Origin: Bacillus sp. ISL-37
Lineage (GTDB): Bacteria; Bacillota; Bacilli; Bacillales; Cytobacillaceae
Assembly: GCF_018613315.1 (NCBI RefSeq)
Contig: NZ_JAGGQL010000011.1
Location: 1-64,000, forward strand
DNA length: 64,000 bases
Reading direction: 5' to 3'
A program made the position numbers and the translations under genes. The notes below the pieces were generated by a model. The model was not told the DNA's origin and ran no database searches. It worked only from the letters and a program-made list of their open reading frames with translations. The stretch's first letter is position 1, and each line of letters begins with the position of its first letter. Shown one piece after another: positions 8,383-61,801 of this stretch.

Positions 8383-8390
8383 ATGTGAAT

Positions 8391-8823
8391 GATGACGGAC
8401 AGAAATAGGCGAGAATAAGGAAAAAGTATCCGTCATAGCGGTGATGACGGACAGAAATAGGCGAGAAGAAGGAAAAAATGTCCGTCATAGTGGTGATGAC
8501 GGACAGAAATAGGCGAGAAGAAAGAAAAAGTGTCCGTCATAGCGGTGATGACGGACAGAAATAGGCTAGAAGAAGGAAAAAATGTCCGTCATAGTGGTGA
8601 TGACGGACAGGAATAGGCTAGAAGAAAGAAAAAGTGTCCGTCATAGTGGTGATGACGGACAGAAATAGGCGAGAAGAAAGAAAAAGTGTCCGTCATAGTG
8701 GTGATGACGGACAGAAATAGGCGAGAAGAAAGAAAAAGTGTCCGTCATAGTGGTGAAGACGGACAGAAATAGGTGAAAAGAAAGAAAAAATGACCGTCAT
8801 AATGGTGATGACGGTCAAAAATA
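8391..8823. repeat. Tandem array of 52-bp units, GACGGACA...TGTCCGTC family
   Basis: Eight complete units and a partial ninth begin at 8391, 8443, 8495, 8547, 8599, 8651, 8703, 8755 and 8807, always 52 bases apart. Each contains GACGGACA and TGTCCGTC as inverted arms around a purine-rich centre (gaaataggcgagaagaa). The eighth starts GAAGACGG and the ninth has GACGGTCA, each with a compensating change in the partner arm nearby. The array fills the space between convergent yufK and pbpD. A related single unit lies at about 31.0 kb. Confidence 0.95.
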
Positions 8824-13611: not shown

Positions 13612-13800
13612 AGTTCACGGAATTATGATAAAATTTCGCGGAATTCCGATTGTTTTTCGCGGAATCAAGCAAAGGTTTCGCGGGATTATCCTCCCTTTTC
13701 GCGGAATCAAGCACCGATTAGCGGGATTATCCTCCTTTTCGGGGAATCAAGCACTGATTCAGGGGATTATTCTCTCTTTTCGCGTAATTAAACTATTATT
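13612..13800. repeat. Intergenic repeats, CGCGGAATCAAGCA family (40-42 bp spacing)
   Basis: CGCGGAATCAAGC-like blocks start at 13658, 13700 and 13740 with a degenerate copy at 13781 (spacings 42, 40, 41), interleaved with CGGGATTATCCTCC-like blocks. The remainder of 13574-13914 has no gene; a TATAAT at about 13871 may serve the downstream gene. Confidence 0.8.
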
Positions 13801-30869: not shown

Positions 30870-31070
30870 CAGTTCGCCAATAAATTTTGATAATCGCCAA
30901 TAAAGTTGTGAAAATCGCCAATAAAGTTGGATTATCGCCAATAAAGTTGTGAAAACCGCGAATAAAAATAAATTATCGCCAATAAACGTAATGACAGTAG
31001 AAAAAATGTCCGTTATCCAGCCTATGACGGACAGAAATAGCAAAATTACCGAAGAAAGTGTCTGTCATCA
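30870..31070. repeat. CGCCAATAAAGTT repeats (about 20.5 bp) plus one GACGGACA unit
   Basis: CGCCAATAA or CGCGAATAA blocks start at 30875, 30895, 30916, 30936, 30957 and 30977, alternately 20 and 21 bases apart. At about 31004-31069 a diverged copy of the 8.4-kb array follows (TGTCCGTTAT, GACGGACAGAAATAG, GTGTCTGTCAT). The rest of 30829-31173 is gene-free. Confidence 0.88.
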
Positions 31071-38090: not shown

Positions 38091-38153
38091 ATGATGGCTC
38101 AATTGTCATTCTGGTCTCTTCCTCTTCTACAAATTTTTAAATTTTACAAACAC

Positions 38154-38171
38154 TATGATAATATATACATA
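38154..38171 (+). promoter_or_regulatory. PlcR-box-like palindrome upstream of the PlcR-like gene
   Basis: TATGATAATATATACATA has the TATG...CATA ends of the PlcR operator (TATGNANNNNTNCATA) but with 10 rather than 8 bases between them. It lies 24 bases upstream of the regulator ATG and overlaps a TATA-rich -10 region. This would fit autoregulation; the identity is only suggestive. Confidence 0.4.
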
Positions 38172-38195: not shown

Positions 38196-39080
38196 ATGAG
38201 CCTGGTTGGATATAACTTCGGGGAAATTCTTCAGTCTTCAAGAAATTTTAAAGGATTGAATCCGGCAGAGTTGGCCGAAGGAATTTGTTCAGAAGCGGAA
38301 ATAATTCAATTTGAGAAAGAAGAGAAATATCCAACGATCGACCAATTATATAAAATGGCATTGAAGTTGGATGTTGAGCTTAATCACTTCTTTGACTTTG
38401 CATCTACTGATACCTATAATTATGCAATCGCCGTTACGGAATTAATTAAGAAATATAAGCGTGAACGGGATTATGCTGCGATCAATGAAATCATTCAAAA
38501 AGAGCAGGGTAATCCTCTGTTCAAGCATACTTCCTTCAGCCAATTTTTGCTGTGGCATGAGGGGATCAGTACATACTATCTTGAGGAAGATAAGGAGAAG
38601 TCCGTTGGTTTGCTATTTAAAGCTTTGTCTATGACCAATAAGGCGGATACTTTGACAGAACGTGAGATCGAGATTCTGACCAGTATCGCCATTGTTGAGA
38701 AAGATAGTGGAAACCTGGACAAGGCTGTTGAAGTTTTCCTTAGTGCCTTGAATAATCTTGCAAGTCTCCCTCAGGTACAAGACTCAAGCATCTGGCTAAG
38801 GATTTTATATGGACTGGCCCAGGCATTATCGAAGCTGGAGAAATATGAAGAATCACTTATATATTGCAGTAAAGGGATCGATAACTGTATATATGAAGAA
38901 AATATGTATTTATTTGGTGAACTTCATTACCAAACAGGCATGAATTTTATAAAATTGGGTAAATTAGAAAAAGGTAAAGGCTATCTGGAAAAAGCAATCA
39001 CTATTTTTGGCCTACAGAAAAATGAGAAGTTTGCTAGTTTAGTAGAGACTGAAATGGAAAAATTATTGAAGTATTGTTAA
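38196..39080 (+). CDS. PlcR-like quorum-sensing regulator (HTH plus TPR, RRNPP type)
   Basis: 294 residues from ATG 38196 (GGGGTGTAGGG upstream). An N-terminal XRE-type HTH (about 6-60, with AELAEGICSEAEIIQFEKEE as the HTH core) is followed by about 230 residues of helical TPR repeats. Segments such as FSQFLLWHEGISTYYLEED, YEESLIYCSKGIDNC and GELHYQTGMNFIKLGKLE align by eye with PlcR of the B. cereus group in the same order and spacing. Such proteins bind a re-imported signalling peptide in the TPR groove and then activate transcription. The next gene encodes a PapR-like repeat peptide, as in plcR-papR. Confidence 0.85.
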   Translation: MSLVGYNFGEILQSSRNFKGLNPAELAEGICSEAEIIQFEKEEKYPTIDQLYKMALKLDVELNHFFDFASTDTYNYAIAVTELIKKYKRERDYAAINEIIQKEQGNPLFKHTSFSQFLLWHEGISTYYLEEDKEKSVGLLFKALSMTNKADTLTEREIEILTSIAIVEKDSGNLDKAVEVFLSALNNLASLPQVQDSSIWLRILYGLAQALSKLEKYEESLIYCSKGIDNCIYEENMYLFGELHYQTGMNFIKLGKLEKGKGYLEKAITIFGLQKNEKFASLVETEMEKLLKYC

Positions 39081-39122
39081 TCCCATAATACTGAACAACC
39101 AGTGTAAGAGGAGGATTATAAA

Positions 39123-39710
39123 ATGAAAAAAGCTCTGTTATTGACTGCGATTGCGACTGTACTTTTTGCTGCCATTGGGTTGGGCGCAACATCCTACAAT
39201 GTTGCAGACCTTCCATCACAGCATTCACTGAAGGATTCGACAGTAGCGGACCTGCCGTCCAAGCATTCACAGGAAGGCCAGACAGTAGCGGACTTGCCGT
39301 CCCAGCACTCGCAGGAAGGCCAGACAGTAGCAGACCTGCCGTCCCAGCATTCCCAGGAAGAGATAATAACAGTAGCGGACCTGCCGTCCCAGCATTCACA
39401 GGAAGGCCAGACAGTAGCGGACCTGCCGTCCCAGCATTCGCAGGAAGGCCAGACAGTAGCGGACCTGCCGTCCCAGCACTCGCAGGAAGGGCTAACAGTA
39501 GCAGACCTGCCGTCCCAGCACTCGCAAGAAGGCCAGACAGTAGCGGACTTGCCGTCGCAGCACTCGCAGGAAGGCCAGACAGTAGCGGACTTGCCGTCGC
39601 AGCACTCGCAGGAAGGCCAGACAGTAGCGGACTTGCCGTCGCAGCATTCACAGGGTGATACAGCAGAGGATCTTCCTTCTCAACATAGTTATAGTAATAC
39701 AATGTCGTAA
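39123..39710 (+). CDS. Secreted pre-pro-peptide with 12 tandem PapR-like signal units
   Basis: 195 residues. A Sec signal peptide (MKKALLLTAIATVLFAAIGLGA) is followed by eleven units of VADLPS(Q/K)HS plus a 5-6 residue spacer (mostly QEGQT) and a twelfth, EDLPSQHS. The unit is 14 residues (42 bp); unit 4 has one extra residue. The ADLP core is the same as in mature PapR (ADLPFEF), the ligand of PlcR. The gene follows the PlcR-like regulator by 42 bases with AGAGGAGG before ATG 39123. I infer a polyprotein pheromone: exported, cut in the spacers, re-imported by an oligopeptide permease and bound by the regulator. Confidence 0.88.
   Translation: MKKALLLTAIATVLFAAIGLGATSYNVADLPSQHSLKDSTVADLPSKHSQEGQTVADLPSQHSQEGQTVADLPSQHSQEEIITVADLPSQHSQEGQTVADLPSQHSQEGQTVADLPSQHSQEGLTVADLPSQHSQEGQTVADLPSQHSQEGQTVADLPSQHSQEGQTVADLPSQHSQGDTAEDLPSQHSYSNTMS
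39201..39697 (+). repeat. 42-bp tandem coding repeats of the signal-peptide gene
   Basis: Twelve units run in frame. The last full units are nearly identical at the DNA level (agcggacttgccgtcgcag repeated), indicating recent expansion. The first and last units differ at many third positions yet encode the same DLPSQHS core. Confidence 0.95.
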
Positions 39711-39728: not shown

Positions 39729-39752
39729 AACCTGTTGGTCAGGTTGTTTTTT
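39729..39752 (+). terminator. Terminator of the signal-peptide gene
   Basis: AACCTG and CAGGTT arms with a 5-base loop are followed by GTTTTTT, 18 bases after the stop codon. Confidence 0.82.
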
Positions 39753-39886
39753 ATGTTTTAAAACAATTTTGTTATACTCTTTAAAACTTTAACGTATATT
39801 TTTTCGGATTAGGAAAAGGCTCTGGGAACTTCCAGAACCTATAATATTTATTATTAAATTGCTGATGGCCACATCGGCTACAAATT

Positions 39887-40144
39887 TTAGTCGACGATAT
39901 CCATATGACTAGGGTCCATCATATTGAAGTTCTTGCTCGGCATGGCACCGTTTGTACCGTGGCAGTCATTGTACATTTGCTTGACTTCTTCATCGGACAA
40001 GCCTGGGTGCATCTTTTCGATTAACGGCTTCATTTGACCAAAATTAAAAGTACCTTTACCTTCTGTCCCTTCTTCTGCAAAGGCAGCAGTGCTTGCTCCA
40101 ATTATCAATGCTGCGCCAAAAAAACTTAACGTTAGTTTTTTCAT
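39887..40144 (-). CDS. Small secreted protein of unknown function
   Basis: 85 residues from ATG 40144 (GGAG 11 bases upstream); a longer in-frame reading to 40249 lacks a ribosome site. A clear Sec signal peptide ends STAAFA-EE (about residue 22). The mature part of about 63 residues is Met- and Asp-rich, with one Cys (NDCHGTNGAMPSKNF) and the helix LSDEEVKQMYNDC. The family is not recognised. It is divergent from the VTT-domain gene. Confidence 0.65.
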   Translation of the reverse strand: MKKLTLSFFGAALIIGASTAAFAEEGTEGKGTFNFGQMKPLIEKMHPGLSDEEVKQMYNDCHGTNGAMPSKNFNMMDPSHMDIVD

Positions 40145-45814: not shown

Positions 45815-46118
45815 TGTTTTAATAGACATTTCGGGGTCGAAGCAAAGTCAAAATGTCTAATAAAGAAGGATTAATGGACATTTCGAAGACGAAGCAAAGT
45901 CAAAATGTCTAATAAAGTTGGTTTAATGGACATTTCGAAGGCGAAGCAAAGTCAAAATGTCCAAGAAAGAGGGTTTAATGGACATTTCGGGATCGAAGCA
46001 AAGTCAAAATGTCTAATAAAGAAGGGTTAATGGACATTTCGAAGGCGAGGCAAAGTCAAAATGTCCAAGAAAGAGGGGTTAATGGACATTTTAAAAGAGA
46101 AGCAGCGCAAAAATGTCC
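45815..46118. repeat. Tandem array of 52-bp units, ATGGACATTT...AAATGTCC family
   Basis: ATGGACATTT starts at 45874, 45926, 45978, 46030 and 46082, always 52 bases apart, after a first degenerate unit at about 45822 (ATAGACATTT). Each has GGACATTT and AAATGTC(C/T) as inverted arms around cgaaggcgaagcaaagtc. It fills the gap between the convergent nucleotidase pseudogene and the ResA-like gene. Confidence 0.95.
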
Positions 46119-46128
46119 ATTAAGACAC

Positions 46129-61060: not shown

Positions 61061-61085
61061 GGAGATAAAAGGTGGGAAGTCTATA

Positions 61086-61801
61086 GCCGTCAAGAAAACA
61101 TCGTTATTGTGACAGGTTTCAGGTGCAGAGCCTCAAAGCTGTCAAGAATCCGTTGTTATTGTGACAGGTTTCAAGCGCTTAGCCCCAAAGCTGTCAAGAA
61201 AGCGACGTTATTGTGACAGGTTTCAAGTGGAGAGCCGCAAAGCTGTCAAGAAAACATTGTTATTATGACAGCTTTGAAGCGCTTAGCCCCAAAGCTGTCA
61301 AGAATCCGACGTTATTATGACAGGTTTCAAGCGCTTAGCCCCAAAGCTGTCAAGAAAGCGACGTTATTAAGACAGGTTTCAGGTGCAGAGTTCCAAAGCT
61401 GTCAAGAAAGCGAGGTTATTTTGACAGGTTTCAAGTGCTGAGACTCAAAGCTGTCAAGAATCCGGCGTTATTGTGACAGGTTTCAAGTGCAGAGCTCCAA
61501 AGCTGTCAAGAAAGCGACGTTATTAAGACAGGTTTCAAGTGGAGAGCCCCAAAGCTGTCAAGAAAGCGACGTTATTTTGACAGGTTTCAAGTGGAGAGCC
61601 GCAAAGTTGTCAAGAAAACATCGTTATTATGACAGCTTTGAAGCGCTTAGCCCCAAAGCTGTCAAGAAAGCGACGTTATTATGACAGGTTTCAAGTGGAG
61701 AGCCGCAAAGCTGTCAAGAAAACATCGTTATTATGACAGCTTTGAAGCGCTTAGCCCCAAAGCTGTCAAGAATCCGACGTTATTATGACAGGTTTGGAGG
61801 A
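61086..61801. repeat. Array of fourteen 52-bp units, GCTGTCA...TGACAG family
   Basis: GCTGTCAAG (first one GCCGTCAAG) starts at 61086 and every 52 bases to 61762, fourteen units with no insertion or deletion in the phase. Each has CTGTCA and TGACAG (sometimes AGACAG) arms around AAG(A/T)(A/C)..CG.CGTTATT. The tail of each unit alternates between caagcgcttagccccaaa and caagtggagagccgcaaa variants. No open reading frame here is convincing. Confidence 0.97.

Follow-up and report, generated by a model that had tools for sequence, protein, structure and literature searches.

The PlcR receptor of the Bacillus cereus group is paired with the PapR peptide, whose heptapeptide PapR7 is ADLPFEF and whose PapR IV form is the His-ended SDLPFEH. 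The hot spots of PapR are Pro4, Glu6 and Phe7, and according to the accessible part of PMC6568020, Lys89, Gln237 and Tyr275 of PlcR contact Glu6. A PlcR paralogue, PlcRa, has a heptapeptide of its own, CSIPYEY (PlcRa-PapRa, available portion of PMC3519770). Precursors that hold their peptide more than once have also been reported: in the part of PMC9765709 accessible to us, multi-copy propeptides occur in the AimR, NprR, PlcR and Rap subfamilies with up to six copies, repeats are found among atypically large propeptides (AimR 3/11, NprR 17/17, PlcR 3/15, Rap 5/311), and the processing of internal copies is raised as an open question and called a mystery. The available excerpt of PMC11343458 describes tandem Phr pheromones (Rap3T-Phr3T, Rap105-Phr105) that are released and active, and mentions Phr with up to eight copies. 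From these two excerpts, multi-copy propeptides are a kind already known, and the three repeat-bearing cases among 15 large PlcR-subfamily propeptides in PMC9765709 do not support the initial annotation, which knew of no described multicopy PapR-type system. The survey default of PMC10075063, as given in its accessible part, is an upper limit of 100 aa for propeptides, and would therefore miss 21 of the 65 precursors of our first set, including the one described here.

Within the 64,000-nucleotide stretch of DNA that was analysed (the window), we describe a gene pair that is very likely a two-gene PlcR/PapR-type peptide quorum-sensing unit on a Mesobacillus chromosome, in which a multi-copy pheromone would be read by the adjoining receptor.

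A PlcR-type receptor gene and its twelve-core neighbour

Both genes were found where the initial annotation had placed them, with 42 nt between them and a second product of 195 aa, and the locus comprises the following features:

38154..38164, + strand: probable extended -10 promoter element (TATGATAATAT) upstream of the receptor gene, seen by eye
38196..39080, + strand: PlcR-type HTH and TPR peptide receptor, 294 aa (phmmer, Pfam, AlphaFold model)
39123..39710, + strand: putative multi-copy pheromone precursor, 195 aa, with a signal-peptide-like N-terminus, twelve cores and a short tail (42-bp tandem array)
39123..39188, + strand: signal-peptide-like N-terminus of about 22 residues (K-rich start and hydrophobic stretch)
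39204..39224, + strand: core 1, ADLPSQH
39246..39266, + strand: core 2, ADLPSKH, the sole core of the window's array with a different pentamer
39288..39308, + strand: core 3, ADLPSQH
39330..39350, + strand: core 4, ADLPSQH
39375..39395, + strand: core 5, ADLPSQH
39417..39437, + strand: core 6, ADLPSQH
39459..39479, + strand: core 7, ADLPSQH
39501..39521, + strand: core 8, ADLPSQH
39543..39563, + strand: core 9, ADLPSQH
39585..39605, + strand: core 10, ADLPSQH
39627..39647, + strand: core 11, ADLPSQH
39666..39686, + strand: core 12, EDLPSQH, followed by the tail SYSNTMS
39729..39755, + strand: intrinsic-terminator-like hairpin and T run 3' of the precursor gene (terminator scan)

The receptor start is set at 38196 as in the orthologues, the ORF list beginning this ORF at 38091. 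Its proposed likeness to PlcR was borne out by phmmer (PlcR 2qfc, E 3.5e-18), and the product matches Pfam RNPP_C (PF18768) with 74.6 bits against a cut-off of 26.5. A structure prediction, which the initial annotation had named as a check of the RRNPP type, agreed: the AlphaFold model (pLDDT 87.3, pTM 0.72) has a predicted PlcR-type HTH and five-TPR fold over the full receptor length, and its best fold matches are 2qfc, 3u3w and 4fsc, all PlcR, with 22-25% identity in the structure alignments. Among homologues of solved structure, PlcR comes closest both in sequence and in fold. As in RRNPPA systems, an RNPP-type TPR domain is joined here by an adjoining small gene for a propeptide with predicted export. 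The genome encodes eight SBP_bac_5 proteins, which permit peptide import and say little about it, since the family is also present in 11 of 14 control genomes.

The count of twelve cores in the precursor was confirmed (ten ADLPSQH, one ADLPSKH and one EDLPSQH), and the array is a 42-bp tandem repeat of 9.8 copies (score 623) whose cores start 42 bp apart, except for single steps of 45 and 39 bp. The spacers, first given as 5-6 residues, are longer, the usual one having seven (QEGQTVA) if the core is counted as DLPSQHS. A codon pattern for DLPSQH matched the whole genome exactly 11 times, always inside the precursor gene, and the reversed pattern, used as a control, gave zero matches. Searched against Pfam and NCBIfam, the window's precursor gave nothing above curated cut-off. 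Its K-rich start and hydrophobic stretch, assessed by hydropathy only, suggest that it is exported, and 61 of 64 scored precursors passed a crude test for such an N-terminus; two of the three failures were borderline (1.89 against 1.9) and the third had a wrong scripted start. The precursor thus looks exported and holds at least two copies of a putative mature peptide, and the repeated copies would be the mature peptides themselves.

Upstream of the receptor gene, the motif T(A/G)TGATAA is seen by eye in 20/20 genus loci. Because the sigma-70 scan did not return the site at 38154..38164, we infer its extended -10 status, and it is probably the promoter element of the receptor gene. A TATG-N10-CATA stretch is present upstream of the receptor gene in the window and was compared with the PlcR-box consensus. 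By eye it is not conserved within the genus; its CATA half varies, so it is better read as an extended -10 element than as a PlcR box. At the other end of the pair, the terminator call is weak taken alone, as the scan found one site and shuffles average 1.7.

By domain search, three genes with GerA, spore-permease and GerAC domains lie upstream of the pair and a VTT-domain gene lies downstream. Among twelve related loci, two of which duplicate a locus already in the set, a GerC-type gene lies upstream in 11 and a VTT gene downstream in 10; L004 ends short of the latter position, and L011 has neither gene beside the pair. A small protein of 83 aa, secreted-looking by eye, is encoded on the minus strand at 39890-40138; it has no Pfam match at E 0.001 and adjoins the pair in 10 of the 12 loci. 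The nearest named record is Mesobacillus selenatarsenatis SF-1, whose receptor is 98% identical to that of the window.

Other repeats were observed in the window. Three tandem arrays, unrelated to one another, have the same period of 52 bp (8390-8823, 45818-46123 and 61085-61795), and an inverted repeat can be made out by eye in the consensus unit of each (GACGGACA..TGTCCGTC; GACATTT..AAATGTC; CTGTCA..TGACAG). Smaller arrays with units of about 20/40 bp, of the TTTCGCGGAATT and TCGCCAATAAA types, lie at 13634-13788 and 30874-30986.

Distribution of the pair and the receptor tree

The pairing of this receptor with a multi-copy PapR-like precursor, as proposed initially, recurs across the genus and beyond it. 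The receptor is present in 20 of 21 genus genomes with a precursor directly downstream in 20/20, 2 to 12 copies being seen (two precursors are cut by contig ends and one contains Ns). The receptor has matches at E 1e-20 in 99 of 193 family genomes, and at the non-genus places with E 6e-80 or better a precursor with the core adjoins in 45/45 listed, among them L067, cut by a contig end, and the single-copy L111. No repeat precursor was seen at fifteen lower-ranked family loci (20 receptor places), one of which (L112) has a 49-aa ORF after it that ends in DLPDRH. At order level, matches at E 1e-25 occur in 181 of 397 genomes, and the 59 loci examined, a subset of all matches made up of 19 newly returned loci and 40 from the ranked list, have a precursor at 22 and none found at 37. 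The statistics include 18 of these 22, as the precursor of L151-L154 is identical to that of L150, and the plasmid locus L127 was added. With E 1e-80 as the limit, a class-level search found matches in 14 of 398 genomes, and no precursor of this kind was found at the 13 loci examined beyond the order. The first listing of precursors was made by ORF and hydropathy with the core unused, and the copy counts use the core pattern.

Phage or virus carriage of the pair was rejected, viral contigs giving no relative and phage records only two weak matches. Twenty plasmid records match the receptor, the best being a receptor from a Cytobacillus plasmid whose precursor has two GYPTQH copies; of the three plasmid loci examined, a Priestia one has a possible 40-aa ORF ending in DLPYQH, and no precursor ORF was seen at a B. 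arachidis one. On plasmid NZ_CP062791.1 (L127, 3004-4078), we observed a multicopy-branch pair whose two-copy GYPTQH precursor is annotated as a hypothetical protein. The order-level family f45 was considered as the B. cereus group; this was dropped because matches to PlcR reached only E 9e-25 and 1e-22 for the two receptor types that were tested.

A tree was built from 125 receptors, reduced to 102 by dropping those at least 95% alike. Sixty-one of them form a branch (SH-aLRT 99 in the quick tree; UFBoot 100 and SH-aLRT 99 in the careful tree) in which all 61 receptors match PF18768 at E 0.01 and all 61 have at least two precursor copies seen; 11 show two, the largest number is 16, and the counts for L012, L014 and L067, cut by contig ends, are lower bounds. 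Outside this multicopy branch lie the nine single-copy precursors on the tree and 31/31 receptors for which no precursor was found. The two-copy L169 also falls outside, so the tree needs two changes, and the branching order there is unsure because several outer rows sit on long branches. The initial annotation had held that homologues regularly lacking the repeat gene would speak against its reading; such homologues do occur (37 of the 59 order-level loci), but only outside the multicopy branch. Its expectation that copy number varies was correct, in that it differs between species.

At 15 family loci (L071, L074-L080, L082-L086, L089 and L092) a second PlcR-like receptor without a precursor lies near the orthologue, and at 12 of them the next listed ORF resembles, by eye, a LysM or NlpC-P60 cell-wall enzyme. 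This second receptor could be a listener or target unit, and the precursor-less order-level receptors (L155, L158-L197) are possibly listeners that use peptides encoded elsewhere.

Conservation of the core and its covariation with the receptor

Selection on the copies was examined in the 59 precursors with three or more copies, taken from 80 closed precursors (the 80 exclude four precursors that are cut by a contig end or contain Ns and still include close relatives, and L020 was also left out of the selection set). With the strict pattern, the cores have a pS of 0.534 and a pN of 0.005, compared with 0.526 and 0.305 in the spacers. As the strict core is found with a fixed pattern, detection was also run in relaxed form (3 of 5 matches), giving 341 copies with seven deviants in 6 of 59 precursors, a core pN of 0.0064, and a pN/pS of 0.012 versus 0.58 in the spacers. 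The copies are thus under purifying selection. Pentamer identity is 0.994 within and 0.668 between precursors, and 67 of 70 multi-copy precursors hold a single pentamer only by the strict pattern.

Short tandem arrays are prone to slippage and copy number differs among close species, and one could suppose that a one-copy precursor grew into this array recently and neutrally, by slippage, and that copy number has no function. We consider this improbable, for the cores of the window's array differ among themselves at a pS of 0.62, within the range of the receptor gene against five relatives (0.10-0.73), with the protein core fixed, and two copies is the lowest number seen anywhere in the 61-receptor branch. 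The copies are therefore old, not newly made by slippage, and nearly all kept, and copy number probably sets the signal yield.

The end of the signal was placed at the core's His (PxxH), because 44 of the 80 closed precursors, and 34 of the 70 multi-copy ones, end there. In 375 copies the residue after His is Ser in 230, Gly in 60, another in 41 and none in 44. In L089 and L092 some GLPTQH cores directly abut, and the peptide there could be no longer than six residues if all copies are used. Of the DLPSQHS core described initially, the DLPSQH part was retained and the final Ser was reassigned to the spacer, and the signal is most likely (A)DLPSQH with a free His end. Of the 375 copies, 301 have Gln and 56 have Glu at core position 6, Pro and His being fixed by the search pattern. 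The window's core shares the Pro of the PapR hot spots. The letters DLPSQH did not occur in the literature searched, which had preprints and most subscription journals outside its scope, and none of the listed matches to LPSQH, LPTQH or IPSEH was tied to quorum sensing.

Receptor and peptide covary. PlcR Gln237 aligns, in a gap-free block, to Glu242 of the window's receptor, and across the 61 receptors a Gln6 pheromone goes with Glu242 in 45/46 and a Glu6 pheromone with Asn or Ser242 in 10/10. Column 242 ranks first of 256 for covariation with pheromone position 6, largely through one clade-wide change with L106 (Gln6, Ser242) as the exception; column 91, which lies in the PlcR Lys87/Lys89 helix, ranks fourth and column 90 ninth, PlcR Lys89 aligning to column 90 beside a gap and Tyr275 lying beyond the aligned segment. 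For pheromone position 3, columns 241 and 85 rank first and second. A tree-aware count of shared changes over 275 columns and four positions, which long-branch changes may inflate, gave column 89 for position 6 (4/4 changes, p 4e-6) and column 127 for position 5 (5/6 changes, p 1e-5); column 242 is not among the twelve best columns of this test. The covariation is consistent with binding of the peptide by the receptor.

These data also bear on whether the secreted-looking tandem-repeat protein keeps its repeats uncut, has a structural or surface role and only happens to be encoded next to a regulator. This is highly improbable: the core is constant while the spacers vary, it changes together with the receptor and, of the PapR hot spots, retains the Pro, related single-copy precursors, listed at 28-60 aa, have one core at their C-terminus, and a precursor adjoins the receptor in 65/65 close orthologue loci (three cut by a contig end and one broken by Ns).

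Proposed signalling and comparison with known systems

In the signalling unit that we favour, the precursor gene would give an exported polyprotein, which extracellular proteases would cut into up to twelve short pheromones, most likely (A)DLPSQH; an oligopeptide permease would import the pheromone, which would bind the TPR groove of the adjoining receptor and alter its activity, with copy number probably setting the yield per precursor. Counted against this mechanism is that internal copies would also require a cut after His.

What the receptor then does is complicated by its recognition helix. At least two of residues 33-35 are acidic in 60 of 61 branch receptors versus 4 of 41 others, and 5 of 61 branch receptors still have the canonical Gly42, compared with 9 of 10 single-copy receptors (a group that includes the two-copy L169) and 24 of 31 precursor-less ones. 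The mean net charge of the HTH is -4.1 in the branch, -0.4 in the single-copy group and -0.7 where no precursor was found; HTH_3 is matched at E 0.01 by 49/61 branch receptors versus 41/41 others, and HTH_31 by 4/61 versus 36/41. This unusual helix places DNA binding by branch receptors in doubt, and they either recognise an operator unlike the one read by PlcR or no longer bind DNA. It is conceivable, though we think it unlikely, that the pheromone is made and branch receptors no longer read DNA like PlcR, their HTH being now protein-binding or otherwise re-tasked, by analogy with Rap receptors, which act on proteins. The acidic residues, the loss of Gly42, the lower charge and the fewer HTH matches would all fit such a change. 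HTH_3 is nevertheless still recognisable in most branch receptors, the AlphaFold model retains five HTH helices, PlcR too has a Glu at position 35 of this numbering, and the altered helix may just read another operator. A bolder and rather doubtful extension is that, in the lineage of this PlcR-derived branch, the multi-copy precursor would have become obligatory and the DNA-reading helix would have been remade as an acidic surface; DNA binding would then have given way to another mode of action, as in Rap but independently of it, fed by an amplified peptide dose.

Among the receptors examined, the branch has a multi-copy precursor throughout, and what had been an odd exception in bacterial signalling becomes a fixed design that can be tested. 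Within one receptor branch copy number runs naturally from 2 to 16, and single-copy relatives lie immediately beyond it; in this series the effect of copy number (dose, timing, cost), the cutting of internal copies and the co-change of receptor and peptide can be tested. Among the literature matches listed, which had preprints and most subscription journals outside their scope, we found no description of a PlcR-type branch with a fixed multicopy state, nor, within the same limits, of 12-16-copy precursors or (A)DLPSQH-type cores, and the matches listed did not mention Mesobacillus in the quorum-sensing or PlcR literature.

Like PlcR-PapR of the Bacillus cereus group, the pair has an HTH and TPR receptor, a core of the form [A/S]DLP-x-x-[F/H] and a precursor, with export predicted here, encoded directly beside the receptor gene. 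It differs from PlcR-PapR in that the window's precursor has twelve cores where PapR is single-copy, position 6 is mostly Gln rather than Glu with Glu242 replacing Gln237, the recognition helix of the branch is altered, and no conserved PlcR box was seen upstream of the receptor gene. The peptide differs from that of PlcRa-PapRa, for which the available portion of PMC3519770 mentions no repeats. As in Rap3T-Phr3T and Rap105-Phr105, the duplicated copies are conserved and the remainder varies, though those systems, as presented in the excerpt of PMC11343458, pair phage Rap-type receptors with Phr peptides and are not PlcR-type. With the propeptides in the accessible part of PMC9765709, the window's precursor shares several copies of a putative mature peptide in one propeptide; the three PlcR cases there possibly overlap with the multicopy branch, and NprR may be in a similar fixed multicopy state. 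What sets the present case apart from those propeptides is a branch of 61 receptors with 2-16 copies each.
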